Assembly (NCBI GenBank): GCA_900316055.1 | Contig: ONBK01000008.1 | Span: 40,200 to 104,199, forward strand | Source: an uncultured Bacteroidales bacterium | GTDB taxonomy: Bacteria; Bacteroidota; Bacteroidia; Bacteroidales; P3 | DNA: 64,000 nt | Direction of reading: 5' to 3' | Part shown: positions 5,152-62,243 of the stretch, piece after piece | Layout: every line of letters starts with the position of its first letter | How positions within the stretch are numbered: position 1 is the stretch's first letter | Notes under the pieces: model-generated | Databases searched by the model: none | Seen by the model: the letters and a program-made list of their open reading frames with translations, nothing else | What the model was told of the DNA's origin: nothing | Made by a program: the position numbers and the translations under genes

Positions 5152-6627
5152 ATGAAAAAGGTAATCTCTTCATTGTTAATGCTGTCGATGGCCTTCCTCG
5201 GCAGCGTTGCCAAGGCCGACAATGTCACCGTCGACCAGGCGAAAGCTATCGGTGCCTATTACATGTCCTACCAGATGGGCGGTGGCGCCGACAAAATTAC
5301 ATCCGAGCAGCTCATGCTGGCTTATCAGTTTGAGAATCCCGACATGAATGTCGCCTCCGCTTACCTCTTCAACGTGAATGGTGGCGGATGGATTATCATC
5401 GCCGGCTCGTCGGTGATGGATCCCGTCATCGCCTATAGTACGGAATGCTCGCTCGACATGAGTGATATCCCCGACAACATGCGCTGGTGGCTCACGGGTT
5501 ATACTAATGTGATTGCTGATATCCAGCTTATGGATGCCGAGAGAGACTATCCTGACAGCGAGGAATACACCACGCTCGCCAGCAAGAGCCTCAAGAATGG
5601 CACAAAAAATCAGAGTGTTAAGTTGATGTCTAGTGAGTGGAATCAGGGTGATGACGACAATCCTACCTACAATCTCTACTGCCCCATGGTTAACGGGCGC
5701 TATTCGGTAACTGGCTGTGTGGCCACTGCTTTGGCGCAGATGTGCAAATACTATGAGTATCCTGTACAGCCCAAGGGAATAGTGTCTTATGATTGGCAAA
5801 ATACAGACGAAGGTACGACACAGACGCTGAGAATCAAGTTGGATACTGTTCAGTTCGACTATTCCTTGATGCCCAATAGGTTGCTTTCCACTTCTTCGGC
5901 AGAGAAGATTCATCAGGTGGCTATGCTGAATTATTGCCTTGGAGTGGCTCTCCATATGGATTATCATCCCGATGGCAGTGCTGCCAATATGATTCAGGCC
6001 AATACAATTATGAAAACCAAATTTAAATATCAGCAAGGCTCCAATCGTCACCGTAATGGCGTCAATGATACCAGTTTCCTTAATACAATCCGTCGTTACT
6101 TGATGAATGGTGATGTGATCGTCATGAGTGGTTCGTCGTCCACAGGTTCGGGTGCCGATGCTGCTGGACATGCCTGGGTGGTCGACGGCTACCAGACAGA
6201 AAATGAAAAGATGTATCACATGAACTGGGGCTGGGGTGGTTCTGGCAATGCCTTCTTTAATCTGGCCGATAATAATATGCGCATTAGTTCGATGGGTTAT
6301 AACTTTAATGTGGATCAGGCTTGCCTCTTCGGCGTTATTCCTCCTGAGGATTCGAACATCCGTCACAACCATGTGGCCATCCGCAACGTGGAGGACAACA
6401 CTTTCCTGGGTACGGCCTATCCCAATCCTGCTGCTTTGTCGGTGGCGCTGCCCTATACCACGGAGATAGCTGCTGACATGCAAATCTATGGTATTGATGG
6501 CAAACTGATTGCCACACGTCGCGTACTGCCGGGCACCGGAGAAGTGACGCTGTGTGTCGACGCACTGCCCAAAGGCGTGTATGTCTACCGCCTGAACAGT
6601 CAGAGTGGAAAATTTATAGTGAGGTGA
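5152..6627 (+). CDS. Secreted C10-family cysteine protease (streptopain/interpain-like) with T9SS sorting domain
   Basis: An extracellular papain-fold protease. The order is signal peptide (MKKVISSLLMLSMAFLGSVAKAD), an inhibitory pro-domain with YYMSYQMGGG and GGGWIIIAGSSVMDPVIAYS, then the mature peptidase. The catalytic Cys is residue 189 in SVTGCVATALAQM and the catalytic His is residue 340 in AGHAWVVDGY. MNWGWGGSGNAFF supplies the conserved Trp/Gly region. The last 70 or so residues, from TAYPNPAAL to LPKGVYVYRLNSQSGKFIVR, are a typical type IX secretion C-terminal signal, so the protein is probably exported through the outer membrane and anchored or released. Relatives are SpeB and Prevotella interpain A. 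It is monocistronic, with its own promoter. Confidence 0.93.
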   Translation: MKKVISSLLMLSMAFLGSVAKADNVTVDQAKAIGAYYMSYQMGGGADKITSEQLMLAYQFENPDMNVASAYLFNVNGGGWIIIAGSSVMDPVIAYSTECSLDMSDIPDNMRWWLTGYTNVIADIQLMDAERDYPDSEEYTTLASKSLKNGTKNQSVKLMSSEWNQGDDDNPTYNLYCPMVNGRYSVTGCVATALAQMCKYYEYPVQPKGIVSYDWQNTDEGTTQTLRIKLDTVQFDYSLMPNRLLSTSSAEKIHQVAMLNYCLGVALHMDYHPDGSAANMIQANTIMKTKFKYQQGSNRHRNGVNDTSFLNTIRRYLMNGDVIVMSGSSSTGSGADAAGHAWVVDGYQTENEKMYHMNWGWGGSGNAFFNLADNNMRISSMGYNFNVDQACLFGVIPPEDSNIRHNHVAIRNVEDNTFLGTAYPNPAALSVALPYTTEIAADMQIYGIDGKLIATRRVLPGTGEVTLCVDALPKGVYVYRLNSQSGKFIVR

Positions 6628-51787: not shown

Positions 51788-52540
51788 ATGTTGGATAGTT
51801 CCCAAATAAAACAGTTGGCTCTCGACGTGGGCTTCGACGACTGCGGCATCGCCCGTGCCGACGCACTCACCGACGACGAATACCCGCTCCACGAGTGGCT
51901 CCGTCGCGGATGGCATGGCGACCTCGCCTACATGGAACGCAACGCCGACAAGCGCATGGATCCGCGACTCCTCGTCCCTGGTGCCAAGAGCGTCATCTGC
52001 CTCGTTAGCGCTTATCCGCCTCCCGACAGCATCGGTGGCACCGCCGCCTATGCCCGCACCCGCGAATACCATGAGGATATCAAGCAGATGCTCCACGCCC
52101 TCCTCGACCGCCTCTCCCCACTCACACAATCAAGCAATCAGGCAATCAAGCAATCCTTCAAACTCTGTTGCGACACCGTCCCCATCAGCGACAAACACTG
52201 GGCCGCCCGCGCCGGCCTCGGATGGATAGGCCGTCACACACTTCTCATCACTTCCCGCTGGGGCTCCTGGGTCAACCTTGGAGAAATAGTAACCACTGAG
52301 GAGTGCTCAGAATATTCTGAATACTCCGAATATTCTGATTTTTGCTCTCGCTGTGGCCGCTGTGTCGCCGCCTGCCCCAACCAAGCCTTGGCCCCTGAGG
52401 GTCCGCCCATGCTGAATGTGACGAGATGCACCGCCTACTACACCACTCATCACCAACGCGAACTACCTCCCGACATCGACACCCGAGGCTACACCCAGGG
52501 ATGCGATATCTGTCAGCTCGCTTGTCCTTTCAATCATTAA
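51788..52540 (+). CDS. queG: Epoxyqueuosine reductase QueG, shortened and repeat-invaded
   Basis: The last step of queuosine synthesis in tRNA, needing cobalamin and two [4Fe-4S] clusters. The 250-residue protein keeps the N-terminal IKQLALDVGFDDCGIARAD, the KHWAARAGLGWIGRHTLLIT motif, CSRCGRCVAACPNQAL and CDICQLACPFN. It stops immediately after the last cysteine cluster (PFNH); homologues usually continue for about 50 residues or more. Two inner segments are repeat-encoded: SSNQAIKQSF (8-bp units) and CSEYSEYSEYSD (9-bp units), the latter where homologues have an EL-YD type strand before the first cluster. Activity is uncertain. Confidence 0.88.
   Translation: MLDSSQIKQLALDVGFDDCGIARADALTDDEYPLHEWLRRGWHGDLAYMERNADKRMDPRLLVPGAKSVICLVSAYPPPDSIGGTAAYARTREYHEDIKQMLHALLDRLSPLTQSSNQAIKQSFKLCCDTVPISDKHWAARAGLGWIGRHTLLITSRWGSWVNLGEIVTTEECSEYSEYSEYSDFCSRCGRCVAACPNQALAPEGPPMLNVTRCTAYYTTHHQRELPPDIDTRGYTQGCDICQLACPFNH
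52127..52158. repeat. 8-bp tandem repeat CAATCAAG in queG
   Basis: CAATCAAG, CAATCAGG, CAATCAAG, CAATCCTT. It encodes QSSNQAIKQSF. Confidence 0.88.
52303..52338. repeat. 9-bp tandem repeat ATATTCTGA/ATACTCCGA in queG
   Basis: GTGCTCAGA, ATATTCTGA, ATACTCCGA, ATATTCTGA. It encodes CSEYSEYSEYSD. ATACTCCGA also appears in the response-regulator linker. Confidence 0.88.
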
Positions 52541-52950
52541 TTGTAGCGACCCAACTTGGTCCAGCTGTGTGAGCTGCCTGCCGGACAACCCAGCGAGGAG
52601 GGTGTGCGCTGGCTGCGGATGGCGATGCCGCATTTACGGCATTGGTAGGTGATGTCGCCTACACGACCTAAGTGATTCCAGGAGTGCGAGTTGCCGGCTG
52701 GACAACCCAACGAGCTGGGGTTTCTTCGGTTCTCGATGCAGGTACCGCATTTCTTGCAGCAGTAGTTCTCCTCGCCCACCTCGCCGAGGTTCTGCCAACT
52801 GTGCGAGCCGCGGGCGGGACAGTTGAGCGACGACGGCGTACTGCCAGCCCTGACCAACGTGCCGCATTTCTTGCATTGGTAATTGCGCAACGCACCCCCA
52901 ATAGAAAATAAAAGACTGAAAGTTAAACAGTAAGCAATAATTTTTATCAT
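52537..52950 (-). CDS. Secreted protein made of three tandem zinc-ribbon-like repeats
   Basis: 137 residues. After a signal peptide (IIAYCLTFSLLFSIGGALRN, cleaved near ALR) come three units of about 37 residues: YQCKKCGTLVRAGSTPSSLN..., YCCKKCGTCIENRRNPSSLG... and YQCRKCGIAIRSQRTPSSLG..., each followed by CPA, GSHSW or NSHSW, and LG. Each unit has CxxC, a third Cys and a His in SHSW, suggesting a metal-binding ribbon. An exported triple ribbon is unusual, since reduced cysteines are typical of the cytoplasm. I recognise the unit as a recurring Bacteroidota motif but know no function. The 3' end overlaps queG's end by 4 bp (convergent). Confidence 0.78.
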   Translation of the reverse strand: MIKIIAYCLTFSLLFSIGGALRNYQCKKCGTLVRAGSTPSSLNCPARGSHSWQNLGEVGEENYCCKKCGTCIENRRNPSSLGCPAGNSHSWNHLGRVGDITYQCRKCGIAIRSQRTPSSLGCPAGSSHSWTKLGRYN

Positions 52951-52997: not shown

Positions 52998-53672
52998 CTA
53001 GGAATCGTAATCTGTCCGAATCTTGTCAAGAATATTCATGACGGTGATGTGGATATCCCCGCCCTCGGAGTAGTCGGCCTTGCACATGAAATCCACGCGG
53101 TTCTCGTTGATAAGTTTTTGGGCGGTGGCTTTTTTCTTTAGGTCGCCATAGACGGCTATGGCATGGCCACCTTGCGACTTCACCACACTCATCGAGGGGA
53201 CGTCAGTCTCTCCGTCGCCAAAGTATATCATCCGCTCGAAAGGAATGGGGCGGTCCTCTTTGGCAACATACTCGTTTATTCTCTTATTGTCGCTCACCTC
53301 GCGGATACCCTTATTGATCTTAAAGAGGAATTGGGTCTTAGTGGTATAGTCCACCGCCACAGCAGGCCAATAGGCGATACCATCGATGTCGTATAAGAAC
53401 GAGCATGCGTAGATGTTCTCAAACTCCTTGGCAATAGAAGTGCCTTCTATCATCTCTTTTAAGCCGGAGGAGTTGATATAGTGTTTGATATTAAGACCAA
53501 TGGTTTTTCCATACTCATTTATCATTTCAAACCATTCCCTCACACCGTTGTAGAGTTCTACCTGAGCGCCGAACCTGCGGAAAGAATCCCGTTTCAACGA
53601 AATTATTTCTTCCAGAGTGTCCAACAAAACCTTTATTGCTGCATAGTAGCGTTCGGGTGATAAGGTTTGCAT
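52998..53672 (-). pseudogene. HAD-family hydrolase lacking its N-terminal catalytic motif (probable remnant)
   Basis: 224 residues. The part from IKVLLDTLEEIISLKRDSFR to the C-terminus, with KHYINSSGLKEMIEGTSIAK, YTTKTQFLFKINKG, MIYFGDGETDVPSMSVVK and GGHAIAVYGDLKKKA, is a HAD hydrolase. The N-terminal DxDxT nucleophile motif is absent. Upstream of the first Met the frame continues only as a shadow of the nucleotidase gene, which it overlaps by 40 bp. Family members carry roughly 60-70 more residues there. I infer that a deletion joined the middle of this gene to the end of its neighbour, leaving an inactive or regulatory remnant. Clean coding to the stop means it could still be translated. 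Confidence 0.65.
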
Positions 53673-54106
53673 AGGTAGTCTTCTATGGCCGCCCAGTCAG
53701 GGAACTCGGGGGAGCCGAACTGAATCCACTTGCCTCGGAATTCGCTGGCGCCGTTATTGGGGCGATCGTCGATAAGGTAGTCGCCGTTCAACAGCTCCTT
53801 ATGGTGGCTGATGATAAGCCGCTTATGGAACAGGTCGTCGAGATGTTCCGTCACCCACCTCACTTTGTCGGCCCACGACGACGGATTTTTCCAAGGGGCT
53901 GTGGAGAGGATATAGCAGTCGTAGTGCTCGGCAATACGGTGCAACGCCTCGATGGCACCAGGCATCGGCTCCATAAGCCCAAAAATGCCTGGAATATTGT
54001 CCGGTTTGTACCCGTAGGCCTGCTTCGTCGCCTCGTCAACCCTGTCAAGCCCCGACTGGAAGTCGACGATGACATTGTCCATATCGAAATAAACGCGTTT
54101 CTTCAT
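53633..54106 (-). CDS. 5'(3')-deoxyribonucleotidase-like protein (NT5C type)
   Basis: 157 residues. MKKRVYFDMDNVIVDFQSGL carries the DMDNV nucleophile motif, ILSTAPWKNPSSWADKVRWV is motif II with the substrate loop, and LLNGDYLIDDRPNNGASEF holds motif IV. These match the type C cytosolic 5'-nucleotidase/deoxyribonucleotidase family of HAD phosphatases. The shortened C-terminus (PYHPNATMQQ) lies in the region overlapping the truncated HAD gene and may be rearranged. Own promoter: TATCTTTG at 54120-54127. Confidence 0.88.
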   Translation of the reverse strand: MKKRVYFDMDNVIVDFQSGLDRVDEATKQAYGYKPDNIPGIFGLMEPMPGAIEALHRIAEHYDCYILSTAPWKNPSSWADKVRWVTEHLDDLFHKRLIISHHKELLNGDYLIDDRPNNGASEFRGKWIQFGSPEFPDWAAIEDYLCKPYHPNATMQQ

Positions 54107-54119
54107 CAGAATTCGTGTG

Positions 54120-54127
54120 CAAAGATA
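54120..54127 (-). promoter_or_regulatory. -7 element TATCTTTG of the nucleotidase gene
   Basis: Plus-strand CAAAGATA, 14 bp before the ATG at 54106, within 20 bp of the stop of the AAA ATPase gene. Confidence 0.75.
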
Positions 54128-54142
54128 CGAAATAATTTTGAT

Positions 54143-55786
54143 TTATGCGGCAAAACCTATTCTTCTCGTCGCAGGCGAGCTAATACTCTCGTTGCTACAC
54201 AGTTCCTCAAGGGTATCCTGCGTGTCAGCGGAGTCACCGTGCAGGATGCATTTGACAGCATACTTGCGGGCGATGTTCTCTATCTGGCCACCACTGAAAT
54301 CATACTCTCCGGCAAGAGCATCGGCGATATCCGTCGGCAACTCGGGAATCATCGTCTTCCATATTTTTGAACGCACCGCGGCGTCGGGCTGCTCGAAGCG
54401 TATCTTGTAGAGAAAGCGTCGTTCGAAGGCGCTGTCGAGGTTTTCTGTGAGGTTGGTGGTGGCGATGAGGATGCCGTCGAGACTCTCCATCTCTTGTAAG
54501 ATGATGTTTTGAATGGTATTCTCCATCTTGTCGACGGCGTTCTGCGCTCCCTGCTTGCGGATGCCTATGATGGCGTCGGCTTCGTTGAAGAGGAGGATGG
54601 GCGCGACATTGAACTTAGCCACCAGCGTACGGTAGCGGTCGAAGAGGGCTTTAATGTTCTTCTCGCTCTCCCCCACCCATTTGCTCTTAATCTGCGGCAC
54701 GTCGACCACCATCACCTGACGCCCTGTGCGGCGCGCCAGCTGGTACACCGTCTCGGTCTTTCCCGTCCCCGGACCCCCGTGGAAGAGGCAGGTGAACGCC
54801 TGTCGGAAGCCCCGCTGTCGCATGCGTTCGTGCACCTCCTTGTAGCGCTTCGCATCGAGCAGCGACGCCAACTCCTCGACCTGACGGTCTACCTTGTCGC
54901 AATAGAAGAGTTCCTTCTCCCCGATGCTATCGGGTTTCATCACATCGGCAGCAGTGTCGGCAGCCACGCTAATGTTCAGCTCGCCCAACAGCTCGCGCTT
55001 GGCATGTTCGGTGAGGTGGAAGCGGTTGTTGTCGGCGATACCGTCGGCACACAGGTGTTCTATCAGCTTCATGTGCATTAAGGGATTGGCGTCGTTGCTC
55101 ATTTCCGACCGCAGCCGCATGAAGGTTGCTTTGTTCTCGTAGAGAGGCTCTATCTGATTGAAGCGCACGTCGTCGTCGTCCTCGTTGACCAATAGGTGGC
55201 AGAAGAGGACGATCAACAGTTGGTCGATGGAACGCACCTTCAGCGCGCACACCTTTCTGGCAAAGGTCAGCTGGGGGTTCTGCTTCAGCAGGGTTTTCAC
55301 CTCTTCGCCCAGTTCGTCGGGAGTGATGGTCTCGTCGCCGAGGTTGTCGAAGAGCACCTTCAGGCGGGCGAATAGCTCGCAGCAGTCGAGCCCCGTGTTC
55401 GGCGGCATATGGTAGGCCTCGTTGTGCTTCAGGGCGCGGAGGACGGCAGCGGGCACAATGAAGGTGTCCTCGTCCTTTCCGCGGCGGTGGTAGCGCAGCA
55501 GCCGGTGGCGGGTCAACGCCTCGACGTCTCCGCTATAGCTGAGGATGCGTATGTTAGAAATGTCGAGGTAGGTGGCCAGGTCGTCGTAATCCACATAGCG
55601 GCAGTTGCGGTCAAGGAAGACGGTGAAGAACACCGCCTGCCGGGTGGTGATACCATAGCTCTCGGCGAGGAATGCAAGTTCTTCCTTGCAGTCGACGAAG
55701 AGTTGGTCGTCCAACTTCGACTTTTTGGCTTTTGCAGCCACACGCTCGATGGCGTCAATCAAGGTAAATTGCTTCAAGTTTTCCAT
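54143..55786 (-). CDS. AAA-family ATPase
   Basis: 547 residues. The N-terminal 300 residues are helical and unrecognised (FTLIDAIERVAAKAKKSKLD ... TTRQAVFFTVFLDRNCRYVD). The AAA module follows: Walker A LFHGGPGTGKTETVY, Walker B PILLFNEADAIIG, in which Asn replaces the usual Asp while Glu is kept, sensor 1 ILIATTNLTENLD, and arginine-finger region FERRFLYKIRFEQPD. It resembles the FtsH/p97-like classic AAA group. The N-domain may bind the LRR protein encoded 13 bp upstream, which is my inference from the operon. Function unknown. Confidence 0.88.
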   Translation of the reverse strand: MENLKQFTLIDAIERVAAKAKKSKLDDQLFVDCKEELAFLAESYGITTRQAVFFTVFLDRNCRYVDYDDLATYLDISNIRILSYSGDVEALTRHRLLRYHRRGKDEDTFIVPAAVLRALKHNEAYHMPPNTGLDCCELFARLKVLFDNLGDETITPDELGEEVKTLLKQNPQLTFARKVCALKVRSIDQLLIVLFCHLLVNEDDDDVRFNQIEPLYENKATFMRLRSEMSNDANPLMHMKLIEHLCADGIADNNRFHLTEHAKRELLGELNISVAADTAADVMKPDSIGEKELFYCDKVDRQVEELASLLDAKRYKEVHERMRQRGFRQAFTCLFHGGPGTGKTETVYQLARRTGRQVMVVDVPQIKSKWVGESEKNIKALFDRYRTLVAKFNVAPILLFNEADAIIGIRKQGAQNAVDKMENTIQNIILQEMESLDGILIATTNLTENLDSAFERRFLYKIRFEQPDAAVRSKIWKTMIPELPTDIADALAGEYDFSGGQIENIARKYAVKCILHGDSADTQDTLEELCSNESISSPATRRIGFAA

Positions 55787-55799
55787 ATTTATATATAAT

Positions 55800-56408
55800 T
55801 CAATCTTGGTAATTCTTAACCTTCAGTTCGGATTTTTTCTCACCGTCGAACATCTCAATGTGGTCGATGGCGGTAGGAGCAACGACTTCTTCGAGGTTCA
55901 CGCAGTAGTGGAACGCGTCGGATGCTACTCGTTTGACGCTGACGGGCAACACGATGCGGCGCAGGTTGCGGCAGTCGTAGAAGCAGGCGGTGGGTATTTG
56001 GGTTATGTTGTCGGGCAGCGTCACATCGTTCACGGCACTGTCGTAGAACAGCGCTTCGGGCAGTACGGAGAGGTTGCGGGGCAGCACGACTTTCTTCAGA
56101 GCGAGCGTACCCTCGAAGGCAGCTTTACCGATATGGGTGATGCTGTCGGGGAGGGTGATCTCTTCAAGTTTGTCGCACAAACCGAAAGCTTCGTCTTCGA
56201 TGCTGTGGAGCGATGACGGCAGCTGTACGCGTCGCAGCTTAGTACACTCGTAAAATGCTTTCTTCGCAATGACGGAGACGCGGTAACCTTGCACATGCGG
56301 CGGTATGACGAGACGGGTCACATCGCTCGTGCGAGGATAAAGATGGAGGACTTTTACTTCATTGTCATTCAGTACACTGAATGCAATATTGTCTTGATGT
56401 ATAACCAT
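55800..56408 (-). CDS. Leucine-rich repeat protein (BspA-type, cytoplasmic)
   Basis: 202 residues, no signal peptide. Units of about 23 residues fit LRR_5: VSVIAKKAFYECTKLRRVQL, LHSIEDEAFGLCDKLEEITL, ITHIGKAAFEGTLALKKVVL, and ITQIPTACFYDCRNLRRIVL. BspA-type LRRs usually occur on surface proteins; a stand-alone cytoplasmic form next to an AAA ATPase is less usual. It starts with MVIHQDNIAFSVLNDNEVKV. Likely co-transcribed with the ATPase. A TATATTCG-type near -7 lies upstream, about 56439-56446 (minus). Confidence 0.85.
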   Translation of the reverse strand: MVIHQDNIAFSVLNDNEVKVLHLYPRTSDVTRLVIPPHVQGYRVSVIAKKAFYECTKLRRVQLPSSLHSIEDEAFGLCDKLEEITLPDSITHIGKAAFEGTLALKKVVLPRNLSVLPEALFYDSAVNDVTLPDNITQIPTACFYDCRNLRRIVLPVSVKRVASDAFHYCVNLEEVVAPTAIDHIEMFDGEKKSELKVKNYQD

Positions 56409-56492
56409 AACAATAACATTTAATTTGTCAACAATGCGAATATACGCATTATTTTCAAATTAAATGTTAAAGAAGTGTTAAAAATTTTAGTT

Positions 56493-59219
56493 TTAGTAAA
56501 GATTAGGTAGATTATTATAAATTTCTTTTATATCCGAGATCATCTTGTTCATCAAAGTTTTAATTGCCATACCATCGATTTTTCTATATCTATAGATGTA
56601 ATGATTATCATAGCAACAGAATGGACCAGATTTCTCTATCTTGGTACCTTTGTAATATAATATATCACGATTGGGATGCACCTCTGTTGCGCCGTAAAAA
56701 TTAAGGAATTGTAGTGCCCCTTTATCATCGATTTCCCCTAATCTTTTAAAGCATTTATTAAGTTGGTTGTATTTTTCTTCACCTTTAACGATATCATCTT
56801 TGAAAATGCCCAGTTGGTTAATGCCATGCCTATATTGATTGCCTTGAATTACAATCTCATAGGTATTACTTTTTTCATTGCCAGGTCCTTCTCCATCACA
56901 AATCCAGGCTGCAATTTGCCCTACGCCTTGGTTTATAGCAATATTCAAATTGACCACCCTTTTCCCTTCTTCTTTTATCTTTCTATTTGAGTATTTGTCG
57001 ATAACTACAGCGGGAATCCCATTTTTCTTTAACTCATTCTTCAAATTTAGAGCGAACATTGAACACCGAAGTTTTATGTACAAGTCATGTAATCTTACCG
57101 ATTTAAGGTCTTCGATTGATTTGGACTCAAACAAGGTTGACTCTTCGTTGTTTTTCGGGAGGATTATATCCTTCAGCTGTACCAGATGTTCTACGAAGTC
57201 GCAATAATCTTTAATATAATGTAAGTGTTTATCATTTTCACTTTTGTAATATTTCGAAATGCTCTCCTTGATCTCGTTATATCCAACTATTTCCCATGGC
57301 TTAACATTATCTTTGTCTGGAAAATCGTCAGAAAGTGTCAACAGGATAAACCTGCAGCATTTGGAATCCTTTGCCTTTTTTACATATTCCTCTAATTGCT
57401 CCTTGTATGGAATACTCTTAACCTTGTTCTCAATCACAAGATCATACACTTTTTTTCCCTCTTCCTTGTGAAAAATGCAAATGTCAAAATTCTCTATTTC
57501 TCTTCCAAATTCATATTCTTGATTGTGATTCAATGGATAGGGAAGATGAAATTCTTTTTTTACGTTTTCGTTTATTACATTTATTAATGCTTCTTGATTT
57601 ACATTCCAAAGATATTCTAAAAAATTACTATGAAATAATTCTTTGGATCCCAGCGACATGCTGAAAATTGGATTATTCTTTAATTTTGTGATAATTGTTT
57701 CCATTTTCAGTTTCTCCCATACTTTGACCATCGCCCAGGTGTCGAGTTCGCAGTAGCGGAGAAGGGCTTCGCGGCTGGCGGCAGCTTCGTTGGGCGACAT
57801 GTCCTTGATGCGAGGGAAGATAGTCATGGCGTCGCCACCGTTCTGACAACGATCGTCGAGACTGTGGTAATCCAGTTCGGGGTCGCTGGGGAAGAGGGCG
57901 GGCAATACCTTTTTTATACTGAACGAGCCGTTCATAGCAGGCACATAATAATTGCCCTCGCGGAACGGCACGAGCAAATCCTTCATATTGGCGTGGATGT
58001 TCATCAGGTGCCCTGCCAAGTCGGGGTAGGAGCCGGCAAGGGACTTGATGACCATTCTCTCAAAAGCCATGTTGTATGCCAGCGAGCAGACATCGCAGGG
58101 GATGTCGTTGCACAGCTGTTCGGCCAGCGCGCGACGCGGGTCGCTGCCGTCGCTGGGGGCGAGAAACTCGCGGTGCTCGAAGGAAGCATCGGCACTTTTC
58201 TTGATATGCAGGGAGTACTGGAACGGCACCTGCTGGTAGGGATGCGTGCCGTCATACTGTGGCACGGCATCCTGCATCGTCTCGAAGTCGAGGAAATAGA
58301 GCGGATAGGTCAGCCCGTCGAGGAAGCGACGGATGCCCTCGCGGTTGATATACTCCTTGTTCGCCAGGGTGCATTCTATCTGCATCTGCTGGATGGGCGT
58401 GAGTTTTTGTTCCCGCATGTCGGCCAGCGTGATGCGTCCGGCGCGGTAGTTCTCCACCTTCTTGGAGAACCACATGCCGTAAAGGTCAAACACCGTAGGC
58501 TCCTCTGTCGGGATGCCGTGCTGTTGCATACAATGCTGGAGGAAGGCGCAACGGTAAGGCTTGTTGCAGTTGTCGGAGAGATCCATATCGGGCTCTTCCT
58601 CCTGCGACAGCAATTTCAGCGCCGTAGGCACACAGAGTGGCACTTTCGCCAGCTCGTCCTGCACAGCCTCGCGCATGTCGTTGATGACGAACAACTGCTG
58701 GATATCCAGAGCCCCATGACGCACATAGTCGCTGTTGAGACACACGAGGTTGATGCCCGTCACGTTGACGCCGCATTGTCGCAGGACCCATGTTTGATAG
58801 GCGATGTCGGGCAGGTATTTGTCCAGTTTCTCTTGGTTCCCGTTATCGTCCTTGGTGCCGGTGCTCTTCACCTCGTAGATGGCCCAGCCGTTGCCCTCGC
58901 GGCGCAACAGGTCGACGGCGCAGTAGCAGCCATCATGAGAGAAGGCCGCTTCGGCTATCACTGGCGTCCCATCGGCCATCAAATGGCGTGTTTTCTCAAT
59001 CATGGCGGCAAGGTCGAGTGAGCCATCAGCTTTGTGCGTGGTAACGTCAACGGTGTTAGGGAACAGACGTTTGGCCAGTTCCCCCACCTCGGTGCCTTTT
59101 TCAAAACGCGCCTGTGCCGCAGGGTCTACCTCCGCAGCAACCTCCGGATGGTAGACCCCAAGCCACAGGTTCTTCGGACACTGACAATAGGCAGTGTAGC
59201 GTGATTTAGAAATATTCAT
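56493..59219 (-). CDS. Fusion of a DUF2779 nuclease/exonuclease protein with a PD-(D/E)XK nuclease
   Basis: 908 residues. Residues 1-505 form a DUF2779 protein: N-terminal Cas4-like PD-(D/E)XK (VIAEAAF, D103, AIYEVKS with E116 and K118), cysteines C12, C14, C218, C224 and C230 that could hold an Fe-S cluster, and a DnaQ-like DEDD part (FLDFETMQD with D311 and E313, LAYNMAFERM, RYCELDTWAMVKVWE). At Met506 the protein changes to METIITKLKNNPIFSMSLG..., a PDDEXK_4-type nuclease with D579 (FDICIF) and E597/K599 (VIENKVKS). The coding sequence switches abruptly from GC-rich, like its neighbours, to strongly AT-rich at the same codon. Both nuclease sites look intact. Substrate and role unknown; defence is a guess. 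Confidence 0.85.
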   Translation of the reverse strand: MNISKSRYTAYCQCPKNLWLGVYHPEVAAEVDPAAQARFEKGTEVGELAKRLFPNTVDVTTHKADGSLDLAAMIEKTRHLMADGTPVIAEAAFSHDGCYCAVDLLRREGNGWAIYEVKSTGTKDDNGNQEKLDKYLPDIAYQTWVLRQCGVNVTGINLVCLNSDYVRHGALDIQQLFVINDMREAVQDELAKVPLCVPTALKLLSQEEEPDMDLSDNCNKPYRCAFLQHCMQQHGIPTEEPTVFDLYGMWFSKKVENYRAGRITLADMREQKLTPIQQMQIECTLANKEYINREGIRRFLDGLTYPLYFLDFETMQDAVPQYDGTHPYQQVPFQYSLHIKKSADASFEHREFLAPSDGSDPRRALAEQLCNDIPCDVCSLAYNMAFERMVIKSLAGSYPDLAGHLMNIHANMKDLLVPFREGNYYVPAMNGSFSIKKVLPALFPSDPELDYHSLDDRCQNGGDAMTIFPRIKDMSPNEAAASREALLRYCELDTWAMVKVWEKLKMETIITKLKNNPIFSMSLGSKELFHSNFLEYLWNVNQEALINVINENVKKEFHLPYPLNHNQEYEFGREIENFDICIFHKEEGKKVYDLVIENKVKSIPYKEQLEEYVKKAKDSKCCRFILLTLSDDFPDKDNVKPWEIVGYNEIKESISKYYKSENDKHLHYIKDYCDFVEHLVQLKDIILPKNNEESTLFESKSIEDLKSVRLHDLYIKLRCSMFALNLKNELKKNGIPAVVIDKYSNRKIKEEGKRVVNLNIAINQGVGQIAAWICDGEGPGNEKSNTYEIVIQGNQYRHGINQLGIFKDDIVKGEEKYNQLNKCFKRLGEIDDKGALQFLNFYGATEVHPNRDILYYKGTKIEKSGPFCCYDNHYIYRYRKIDGMAIKTLMNKMISDIKEIYNNLPNLY

Positions 59220-59241
59220 ATTATAGTGTTGTTATTTGCCG

Positions 59242-59249
59242 CAAATATA
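59242..59249 (-). promoter_or_regulatory. -7 element TATATTTG of the DUF2779 fusion gene
   Basis: Plus-strand CAAATATA, 23 bp before the ATG. A second match (CAAAGTTA, 59327-59334) lies further upstream. Confidence 0.65.
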
Positions 59250-59596
59250 AGAAATTTTTTCGACTAAAATGTTAAAAAATTGTTTTTTCTTCGAATCTCA
59301 TACGTTATGGTTTCAAAAATCATGTGCAAAGTTACAAAAAAATATTAAATATTCCAAATTAAAAACACAAAAAACTATCCTGTAGTTAATTATAGACACA
59401 ACCATCACAATTATATATGCAATATCTGTCTCAATGGAACTACGAATTAAATGTTTGGACCCAAAGCAATGAACTTGCGACACGAAACGCGGAGGGTGTC
59501 ATAATAAGGATCTATTGTAATCCAAAAAATTCATATAATTTTATGGATTATAATCCCATAAAATATTATAATTTCTTGGATTATGAAAAATATTTG
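59250..59596. other. AT-rich interval without a supported gene
   Basis: About 350 bp, markedly AT-rich compared with the genes on both sides. It contains near-repeats around TTATGGATTATAATCCCATA and ATTTCTTGGATTAT. An open frame (59417-59617) overlaps the next promoter and resembles nothing I know. It may be residual foreign DNA linked to the AT-rich half of the fusion gene. Confidence 0.5.
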
Positions 59597-59604
59597 TATC
59601 TTTG
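59597..59604 (+). promoter_or_regulatory. -7 element TATCTTTG of the TonB-dependent receptor gene
   Basis: TATCTTTGCA. The leader to the ATG at 59724 is about 110 nt and contains a hairpin CTGCC-ATTTT-GGCAG (59646-59660), so post-transcriptional control is possible. I did not see the cobalamin riboswitch B12-box. Confidence 0.7.
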
Positions 59605-59723
59605 CATCATGTTTTAAATTATCCAGCGTTTTGCATTTTCTGCGACTGCCATTTTGGCAGAAGGGCGGTTGTGGCATGATTGTTGTCATTTCCTGTACAG
59701 AGTTTAACAAAAAAAAACAATCG

Positions 59724-61727
59724 ATGAACAGACACATCTACAAACCCATGTGCGCGTTCCGGTTCCGGCGCTTCTGCCGTGCCAAGTGGGCGGCCTACAG
59801 CTCGATGCACCGCGAGGTGACCATCGGACGGCTGGCAGCTCGCGTGGCCGACAGCAGCCTTGCCAAAGGTGCCGCCACCTTGGCGCTGGCCATCACCCTC
59901 TCGCAGGGCAACCTCATGGCACAGAGCGACGACGACCGCGAGACACGCACCCTGCCGGAGGTCACCATCACCCTCGGCACCGACAGCCTCGCTTTCGAGG
60001 CAGAGCCTGCGGCGGTTCTCACCGCAGATGATTTCCAACAATCCACCATTCATTCCATTGGCGACCTCGTGGCGCAACTGCCCGGGGTGGACCTCCGTGT
60101 TCGCGGTGGGGGCGACGTGCAGGGGGACCTCTCGATGCGCGGTGGCACCTTCGACCAGATGCTCATCCTGCTGGGTGGCATCAACCTCACCGATGCCCAG
60201 ACGGGGCACCATAGCCTCGACATTCCCATCGACATTACGATGGTGGAGCGCGTCGAGCTGCTGACACCCGCACAATGTATGGCACGCGGCATCGTGGCCT
60301 TCTGCGGCGCGGTGAATATCATTGTCTGCGAGCAGTACCGCGACCGACTGCTGGCCGACATCAGTGGCGGTAGCTATGGTAGCGCCAATGCCTCGTTGCT
60401 AGGCACAAAAGCCCTCGGCCACTGGACGCTGACGGGGGCGGCGGCCTATCACCGAAGCGACGGCTACCGCGAGAACAGCGACTACCAGCATGGTAGCCTC
60501 TTCCTGCAGGCCATGCGTCACAACGACCGCAGCGATTGGCATCTGCAACTCGGCGGCCAGATGAAAGACTTTGGCAGCGCAGGGTTCTACTCCACCACCT
60601 ATCCCGACCAGTACGAGGCCACACGCACCCTCACCGCCTCGGCTTCGGGCTCTTTCAAGCTCTCATCGTACCACTTTCAAGTTGCCGCCTACGGGAGACT
60701 GCACGGCGACCGTTTCGAGCTGTTCCGCAACGGCTATGTCGACAGCGTACCCTCATGGTACAGCGGGCATAACCACCACCTCTCCTCTCTCGCCGGAGCA
60801 CGGGTGCGCATGGTGAAGCCGCTGGGCTTCGGCAAGCTGATGGCCGGTGCCGAGGTGCGTCGCGAGGGTATCTGGAGCAATGTCCTCGGCACAGCCGACA
60901 GCACGCTACCCCACCCCTACACCCATTCTGCCAACCGGACCTCGGCAACCCTCTTTGGCGGATATGGCTTTTCTTACAGGAAATTCAGCGCCGAGGGCGT
61001 CGCCCAGGTGCTCTACAACACCCATTTCGGCACAGACTTCGCGCTGTCGGCAGATTTGCACTACTCTTTTCTCAATTTTCAGATTGCCAGGACCTACCGT
61101 CTACCCTCTTTTACCGACCTTTATTACCAGGGAGCCAACCAAATCGCCAACTTCCACCTCGCCCCCGAGAGCAGCACAAATATCGAGCTGAAGGTGGAAC
61201 AACACCTTGCCCCATTCCACTTTCAATTCTCCACCTACTATCGTGCCGGGCAGGACATCATCGACTGGGTGCGGCAACCCTCGGTCGAGATGTGGTACTC
61301 GATGAACCACACCGCTGTCGATGCCTTCGGGCTCGACCTTCAGACGGACTTCCGCATCTCCATCCTTGACATTCAGCTCAACTATTCTTTCTGCCATATC
61401 GTCCAAGATGCGGGCGAGTGGATTTCCGGATCGGCCCTCGACTATTTGAGGCACCAGCTACACTCCACACTAACCCTGGGCCTCGCCCCCTTCACCATTA
61501 GCCTCACCTCTGCCTATCGCTTCCGCGAGGGCCATTACGTGCTTGCCGACGGAAAGACGGAGCCCTACGGAGGTGTGCTGTTGGCCGATGCTCGTGTATC
61601 GTACACCCTCAGCCACACCACCTTCTATCTTGAGGGGCACAACCTCCTCAATACCGCCTGGCGAGACCACGGTGGCGTTCCCCAGCCGGGGTTAACGCTG
61701 CTGGCAGGTGTTCGGCTGAATGTATGA
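59724..61727 (+). CDS. TonB-dependent outer-membrane receptor with extended N-terminal signal region
   Basis: 667 residues, so a small receptor. The start at MNRHIYKPMCAFRFRRFCRA is downstream of the promoter; longer frames begin inside it. The signal region is unusually long (about 65 residues): a basic aromatic part (RFRRFCRAKWAAYSSMHREV), then TIGRLAARVAD, then a hydrophobic core ending NLMAQ. It resembles extended signal regions I recall on other Bacteroidota receptors. The plug begins LPEVTITLGTDSLAF and has VAQLPGVDLRVRGGGDVQ and LLGGINLTDAQ. The barrel ends AGVRLNV. The substrate could be a siderophore or a cobalamin-like compound. Confidence 0.92.
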   Translation: MNRHIYKPMCAFRFRRFCRAKWAAYSSMHREVTIGRLAARVADSSLAKGAATLALAITLSQGNLMAQSDDDRETRTLPEVTITLGTDSLAFEAEPAAVLTADDFQQSTIHSIGDLVAQLPGVDLRVRGGGDVQGDLSMRGGTFDQMLILLGGINLTDAQTGHHSLDIPIDITMVERVELLTPAQCMARGIVAFCGAVNIIVCEQYRDRLLADISGGSYGSANASLLGTKALGHWTLTGAAAYHRSDGYRENSDYQHGSLFLQAMRHNDRSDWHLQLGGQMKDFGSAGFYSTTYPDQYEATRTLTASASGSFKLSSYHFQVAAYGRLHGDRFELFRNGYVDSVPSWYSGHNHHLSSLAGARVRMVKPLGFGKLMAGAEVRREGIWSNVLGTADSTLPHPYTHSANRTSATLFGGYGFSYRKFSAEGVAQVLYNTHFGTDFALSADLHYSFLNFQIARTYRLPSFTDLYYQGANQIANFHLAPESSTNIELKVEQHLAPFHFQFSTYYRAGQDIIDWVRQPSVEMWYSMNHTAVDAFGLDLQTDFRISILDIQLNYSFCHIVQDAGEWISGSALDYLRHQLHSTLTLGLAPFTISLTSAYRFREGHYVLADGKTEPYGGVLLADARVSYTLSHTTFYLEGHNLLNTAWRDHGGVPQPGLTLLAGVRLNV

Positions 61728-61786
61728 TTGTTCGAGCGACTGACAAGATGGCAGAGTGGACTTTCCTATCTGAGAGGGGGAAAGGA

Positions 61787-61816
61787 AAGGGTGCCAGAGT
61801 TGGAACTGGCACCCTT
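61787..61816. other. Hairpin downstream of the receptor gene
   Basis: AAGGGTGCCAG (61787-61797) and CTGGCACCCTT (61806-61816), perfect 11-bp stem with 8-nt loop. There is no T-run directly after it, so it is not a classical terminator. Confidence 0.6.
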
Positions 61817-62041
61817 GGGAATATCCCATTGGGTTGGAAGAACCCAGTGGGGCGATGGGTTTAATGGAGAGATTGGGTTATTGTTTTGTCAGGGTGTAGG
61901 TGATACCCCCAAATCTCTACAAGGGGGGTATTTTTTTTAACATTTTTTTCAAAAAATGTCACCTCTTTGCATGAAAAATGCCTCCAGACAGGATGAAATC
62001 TACAAGCCACGAAATCAATACCTTCTCCTTACCAACTCCTA

Positions 62042-62080
62042 ACCAACTCCTACCGCGGTAGGAGTTGGTAGGGTGTTGAT
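62042..62080. repeat. Second copy of the CCAACTCCTACC palindrome
   Basis: A 28-base perfect palindrome (62042-62069) followed by TAGGGTGTTG. The first 38 bases match the element at 20168-20205 except for about two positions. A partial copy ACCAACTCCTA precedes it (62029-62040). It lies in a 516-bp gene-free stretch between the receptor and htpG. Confidence 0.85.
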
Positions 62081-62140
62081 AGGGGGTTGGCAGGGGGTTG
62101 GGACTGACAAAATGGCAGTCGGGTACTTGTGGCACAGTAG

Positions 62141-62230
62141 TTGATTGCTTGATTGCTTGAATGTGTAATTGTTTGAATGGCTAATGTGGCCTCCATAAGC
62201 ACTTGCACAATAAAACAATCAAGCAATCAA
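62141..62230. repeat. Inverted pair of CAATCAAG-family tracts upstream of htpG
   Basis: TTGATTGCTTGATTG (62141-62155) is the exact reverse complement of CAATCAAGCAATCAA (62216-62230). The second copy ends 13 bp before the htpG ATG, so the htpG mRNA leader could fold it into a 15-bp stem. Confidence 0.82.
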
Positions 62231-62243
62231 ACAATAATAGGAT

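Follow-up and report, generated by a model that had tools for sequence, protein, structure and literature searches.

Why does a single reading frame of an uncultured Bacteroidales bacterium from the rumen encode three predicted nuclease sites, two in a protein that is complete by itself and a third in a nuclease whose relatives begin with a start codon of their own? The frame lies in the window, the stretch of 64,000 nucleotides analysed here, in which positions 56493-59219 of the minus strand form one uninterrupted ATG-to-stop frame of 908 aa (ORF translation). A first-pass annotation made from the letters alone had read it as a DUF2779 protein joined by a small deletion to a horizontally acquired PD-(D/E)XK nuclease gene, and had suggested that the product could be an undescribed defence or DNA-processing enzyme. 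The features of the gene and of the block around it are collected in Table 1.

Table 1. Features of the fused gene and the surrounding block (window positions)
Feature	Position	Strand	Remarks
DUF2779 part, residues 1-505	57705..59219	-	Cas4-like PD-(D/E)XK domain ~1-237 and DEDDy 3'-5' exonuclease-like domain ~304-505
PDDEXK_4 nuclease part, residues 506-908 and stop	56493..57704	-	AT-rich; relative of the PADLOC candidate PDC-S26
Fusion junction	57696..57712	-	Codon 506 (ATG) at 57704-57702; DUF2779 ends without its customary short tail and stop
LRR_5 (BspA-type) protein, beyond the cargo in sister genomes	55800..56408	-	PF13306 E 2e-34
AAA ATPase, distant IetA relative	54143..55786	-	PF00004 E 1.5e-23; PADLOC IetA E 5e-31
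NT5C-type 5'(3')-deoxyribonucleotidase	53633..54106	-	PF06941 E 8e-19
Block exchanged with the species of G055	53604..59660	.	DNA identity 99.4% vs flanks 89-93%; holds the fusion

The assignment of the two parts stands as first proposed. Residues 1-505 make up a DUF2779 protein of full length: PF11074 matches residues 308-434 with E 8e-45 and 152.5 bits, against a curated Pfam cut-off of 23.3, and PADLOC recognises the first part of the fusion protein as Cas4-like (E 3e-6). In an alignment of 29 DUF2779 rows E90, D103, E116, K118, Q142, D311, E313, Y489 and D493 are invariant; the first five are presumably the residues of a Cas4-like site and the last four those of a DEDDy-like site, with roles assigned by analogy. 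Residues 506-908 are a PDDEXK_4-type nuclease beginning at a Met. The Pfam match (PF14281, cut-off 22.3 bits) is modest, with E 2.6e-5 and 24.7 bits for the whole protein and E 3.5e-6 and 27.5 bits when this half is scanned alone. Its best PADLOC match is PDC-S26 (E 2e-9), which pairs residues 16-174 of the half with positions 36-209 of a 400-position profile and thus falls short of a full-length match. Ten aligned PDDEXK_4 proteins share nine invariant columns that include D579, E597 and K599, the D...ExK signature (10/10), so that conserved residues are present at all three predicted nuclease sites. A profile search of solved structures matched none with alignment A2 (E up to 1) or alignment A1 (E up to 0.1), Foldseek gave no match for the PDDEXK_4 half at E <= 0.001 (top row 2a8e, E 0.023), and a full-length structure model predicts this half at low confidence.

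The two parts meet at a start codon. The start region of free-standing PDDEXK_4 relatives aligns with Met506, the DNA identity of the window with the DUF2779 gene of a sister genome (G046) stops at 57707, and the assembled sequence has neither a stop nor a frameshift at 57704/57705. Family and base composition switch together, as had been noticed at the outset: GC is 0.569 (GC3 0.737) before Met506 and 0.328 (GC3 0.347) from Met506 on, and the maximum-likelihood change-point of GC3 is at codon 498, with a 2-lnL interval of 496-507 that includes codon 506. Upstream of Met506 there is an A-rich lead with GGGAG at nine bases, and a separate PDDEXK_4 protein could be made from this internal start.

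Sister genomes show what else can stand beside DUF2779. Of the 120 genomes of the genus, 14 have a match to the fused gene at E <= 1e-22, and together they carry 16 copies of DUF2779. The slot after DUF2779 holds a fused PDDEXK_4 gene in the window's own genome (G000) and in G055, a separate downstream PDDEXK_4 gene in G046, G009 and G886, McrB plus McrC downstream in G034, G038 and G897, and GmrSD downstream in G866 (PF03235 E 6e-29). On the other side of DUF2779, G049 has an upstream PDDEXK_4 protein (E 1e-10) and G864 an upstream protein that resembles it by BLAST (E 5e-27), matches PDC-S26 weakly (E 2e-6) and matches nothing in Pfam. The cargo is lower in GC than DUF2779 in 15 of 15 DUF2779/cargo pairs compared (the fused pair left out), with a slight gap in G801 (0.304 vs 0.307). 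An LRR gene lies past the cargo in all nine genomes of the downstream arrangement, G866 included. Beside five of the 16 copies (G003, G043, G028 and the second copies of G000 and G055) no restriction gene was recognised, in a search that put the scanned neighbours to Pfam or PADLOC rather than each of them to both.

Two further loci belong to this survey. The second DUF2779 of the window's genome (L027, contig C31 of G000) is a paralogue, 58% identical, accompanied by AAA and LRR relatives; upstream of it is an AT-rich gene of 302 aa without a Pfam or PADLOC match. At L031 in G053, a DUF2779 remnant at about 6157-6263 (residues 1-39, 85% identical) is followed by an LRR gene, which suggests loss of the slot by deletion.

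DUF2779 and its cargo have been swapped independently of each other. Between the window and G046 protein identity is 96% for DUF2779, 31% for PDDEXK_4 and 82% for the LRR protein; between G046 and G009 it is 60% for DUF2779 and 85% for PDDEXK_4; between G009 and G886 it is 95% and 47%, respectively; and the window and G886 share 59% in DUF2779, 31% in PDDEXK_4, 95% in the LRR protein and 95% in the AAA protein. At the DNA level, identity between G046 and G009 rises from ~60% to 88-100% across the final ~150 nt of DUF2779, and that between the window and G046 drops from ~95% to ~45% just past DUF2779. These pairwise shifts place a switch point in the 3'-terminal part of the DUF2779 gene, which is also the site of the fusion. 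An imprecise exchange of cargo, or a small deletion after an exchange, are both plausible origins of the fusion on this pattern.

The ease of such an event also feeds the most serious alternative, in which independent defence genes share an island and were joined without functional consequence; each half may then act by itself, PDDEXK_4 perhaps also being made from Met506. In G046 and G009 the DUF2779 stop and the PDDEXK_4 start overlap by one base, as TAATG, so that loss of the stop needs just a small event, and the A-rich lead and GGGAG in front of Met506 are what this reading would expect. DUF2779 moreover adjoins McrBC and GmrSD as well, and is often without any restriction gene recognised beside it. 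Other C-terminal fusions are likewise missing from the samples covered: the window's frame is the only one above 700 aa in the order sample, and none appeared in the 30 phylum-sample loci read, with the long frames of G301 and G270 left out. Against this, the fusion is retained intact with its whole block in two species, and PDDEXK_4 near DUF2779 recurs across six families. A join without functional meaning is accordingly an unlikely account, though one to be kept in view.

That recurrence emerges from genomes well beyond the genus. PF14281 was searched in 117 DUF2779-carrying genomes (80 + 37), and McrBC and WYL regulators in those 80. Within 3 kb of DUF2779 lie 11 of the 31 PDDEXK_4 places, where 0.08-0.15 would be expected; they belong to six families (G000, G055, G046, G009, G886, G049; G619; G795; G402; G099; G462). 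McrBC places lie equally close in five of 21 cases (G034, G038, G897, G788, G801; expected 0.08-0.14), and a WYL regulator is found within 3 kb of 13 of 92 DUF2779 rows (expected 0.2-0.4); the window's genus showed none up to 7 kb from DUF2779. PDDEXK_4 and McrBC places were never within 3 kb of each other. The expected counts assume uniform placement, a weak null because defence genes cluster; the co-location therefore speaks of a shared neighbourhood and not of interaction or a shared mechanism. Away from DUF2779 are 20 of the 31 PDDEXK_4 and 16 of the 21 McrBC places, and 79 of the 92 DUF2779 rows have no WYL regulator within 3 kb, counts in which contig ends possibly mask some neighbours. 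The PDDEXK_4 neighbours of DUF2779 in G402, G795, G099 and G462 match PDC-S26 with E values of 5e-69 to 1e-167. For example, the order in G402 is AAA, then WYL, PDDEXK_4 (PDC-S26, E 1e-167) and, on the opposite strand, DUF2779. No rates are derived from a set of 20 loci that consisted mostly of top-scoring DUF2779 rows, with G795 and G074 chosen for their PDDEXK_4 match.

The first-pass view of the fusion as a horizontal capture is right about the junction and incomplete beyond it: recurrence in six families, together with McrBC and GmrSD at the same place in sister genomes, argues that the PDDEXK_4 partner is no chance capture. The same counts bear on the idea of a housekeeping or DNA-repair locus, in which DUF2779 would trim DNA during repair, AT-rich genes would merely hitch-hike beside it and defence would have no part. 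Many genomes of the phylum do have a DUF2779 gene beside which neither a restriction gene nor a WYL regulator was recognised, and the block includes a nucleotidase and an LRR protein. However, PDDEXK_4, McrBC and WYL genes are enriched by DUF2779 in unrelated families, and its distribution is patchy (genus, 14 of 120 genomes; order sample, 45 of 393; phylum sample, 60 of 395), unlike that of a core repair gene, which makes a pure repair role quite improbable. A defence context for the fused gene is well supported.

The fusion itself has a second carrier. When the same join was sought elsewhere, as the first-pass annotation had suggested, an equal fused frame of 908 aa came to light in G055, another species, and no further carrier was found among the 120 genus genomes searched. 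The PDDEXK_4 halves of the two proteins are 100% identical and the DUF2779 halves 98.8%. Because the block is so much more alike than its flanks (Table 1), it must have moved recently between species with the fusion included. DUF2779 is then not simply resident, having travelled within 53604-59660; what remains of the proposal that a foreign gene was joined to a resident one is the in-frame join at the start codon of the second gene and the difference in composition. The divergence of the two copies fits an intact gene, with about 17.5 synonymous and 6.5 non-synonymous differences and no stop over the fused frame. In the PDDEXK_4 half there are 2 synonymous and 0 non-synonymous differences, too few between two fused alleles for selection on it to be demonstrable. 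An assembly artefact, in which mis-assembly or a consensus error removed the stop between neighbouring genes, is hardly credible even with one carrier a metagenome assembly and the other a genome in 32 contigs, since the identical junction recurs in a second species on what its only 89-93% identical flanks mark as a different molecule, with 36 mismatches across the 6-kb block and ~7-11% difference outside it, and since both contigs (104 and 295 kb) extend past the block on each side.

Further carriers of the fusion were sought with the PDDEXK_4 half. A scan of genome contigs gave a single locus, that of G055 (MAG RUG14564), and the order sample holds relatives of this half in three of 393 genomes, the window's own counted. 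Neither the scan of viral contigs nor the phage records yielded a fusion carrier, and the plasmid records gave one 30% match, in Paenibacillus.

The edges of the block differ between the two carriers. At one edge a HAD-like gene (52998-53672, weak Pfam match) encodes 224 aa in the window and 274 aa in G055, and ~220 bases of this region are absent from the window relative to G055. At the other, 59661-62242 contains most of a TonB-receptor-like gene (59583-61727, judged by eye), where G055 has ~107 bases. Farther out, at 52537-52950 on the minus strand, a 137-aa ORF contains three cysteine-rich repeats (CxxC ... C ... SHSW), with Zn_ribbon_8 below its cut-off.

The remaining genes of the block are tied to the fused gene to different degrees. 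The LRR protein is 72-95% identical in the six sister genomes compared and 69% in G866. Whether the AAA gene is a member of the defence unit is uncertain. It lies within 8 kb of nine of the 16 DUF2779 copies in the genus, and AAA relatives lie near DUF2779 in some further families; 29 of the 38 AAA rows of the genus are away from DUF2779 and nine near it, and the contigs of G046 and G009 that carry the separate PDDEXK_4 gene are without an AAA row. This distribution, mostly without DUF2779, counts against a cassette that includes it. Two AAA relatives without a nearby DUF2779 adjoin genes of other kinds: at L122 (G841) a PLD/SNF2 helicase protein, and at L124 (G034) an LlaJI-like endonuclease, a McrB-like gene and a C-5 cytosine methylase. 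Given such neighbours, the AAA gene may itself mark defence loci. Among the four genes of the block there is no match to a methyltransferase family and none to a protease, the IetAS partner.

How does the locus compare with known systems? DUF2779 (PF11074) is family F.17 of the RNase H-like superfamily, and the NCBIfam UU173 family match is weak. The fusion protein is like other DUF2779 proteins in the conserved residues of both domains and differs from them by its third, C-terminal nuclease. With PDC-S26 it has the PDDEXK_4 family in common, as a divergent relative, matched over part of the profile, that is fused to DUF2779. PADLOC treats PDC-S26 as a lone gene. In sister genomes the type IV restriction systems McrBC and GmrSD can take the slot that follows DUF2779, and the window's block is without a methyltransferase match. 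The likeness to IetAS is confined to the AAA protein, a distant IetA relative that misses the NCBIfam IteA cut-off with 99.9 of 510 bits.

The make-up of DUF2779, a nuclease-like DUF83 domain plus a 3'-5' exonuclease-like domain, was described in 2014, according to the available portion of that paper (PMC3985635), which makes no mention of a defence neighbourhood. The Cas4-like and exonuclease composition is to that extent not new. Of the enzyme once proposed, the three predicted nuclease sites are supported, and defence is its likely setting. PDC genes are candidates put forward with PADLOC, as the portion consulted of PMC11514479 presents them. In the literature searched, whose scope excluded subscription papers and preprints, nothing was found that describes DUF2779 in a defence role or reports the slot or the fusion, and searches for PDDEXK_4 and for PDC-S26 within the same scope found nothing. 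The available parts of two papers on WYL regulators and type IV systems (PMC11090510, PMC9122601) contain no passage on DUF2779. What appears to be new is thus a restriction-type defence cassette, of a known kind, with DUF2779 as a previously unrecognised constant partner.

Taken together, the fused gene is probably an allele of a recurrent defence cassette, encoding a restriction-type antiphage nuclease in which a cutter is tethered to an end-degrading partner. The constant part of the cassette would be DUF2779, with its Cas4-like nuclease and 3'-5' exonuclease-like domain; the variable part would be a restriction-type nuclease, exchanged by recombination between two switch points, one within the 3' end of DUF2779 and the other no farther than the LRR gene. 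In the allele of the window, an exchange or deletion may have removed the final codons of DUF2779 together with its stop, the incoming PDDEXK_4 gene landing in frame. The PDDEXK_4 part would cut invading DNA, and the tethered DUF2779 part would resect or degrade the ends, leaving the cut phage DNA beyond repair. The AAA, LRR and nucleotidase genes are possible accessories, the AAA gene being the weakest case. As the block has no methyltransferase match and McrBC or GmrSD take the same slot, the cutter is more likely to be modification-dependent (type IV-like) or infection-triggered than a classical type II enzyme, which is a guess from the genomic setting.

Related bacteria keep swapping DNA-cutting defence genes at this slot, which suggests DUF2779 as their partner. 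On a wider and more tentative view, which we consider possible without leaning towards it, DUF2779 would be the constant end-processor in a combinatorial defence system of Bacteroidota that has yet to be described, joined in some lineages by an AAA ATPase and a WYL regulator. It would serve whichever of the interchangeable cutters (PDDEXK_4/PDC-S26, McrBC, GmrSD) had been brought in by exchange at the 3' end of its gene, and the fusion would signal that cutter and degrader cooperate.

DUF2779 has so far been an uncharacterised two-nuclease family and PDC-S26 only a defence candidate proposed by computation; the two are connected by the fusion and by the recurrent pairing. Both observations predict that a restriction-type cutter works in partnership with a Cas4/exonuclease-like degrader. 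If type IV and PDDEXK_4 enzymes replace one another next to an unchanging partner, the locus would be a natural experiment on the exchange of defence genes and on how restriction may be completed after the first cut.
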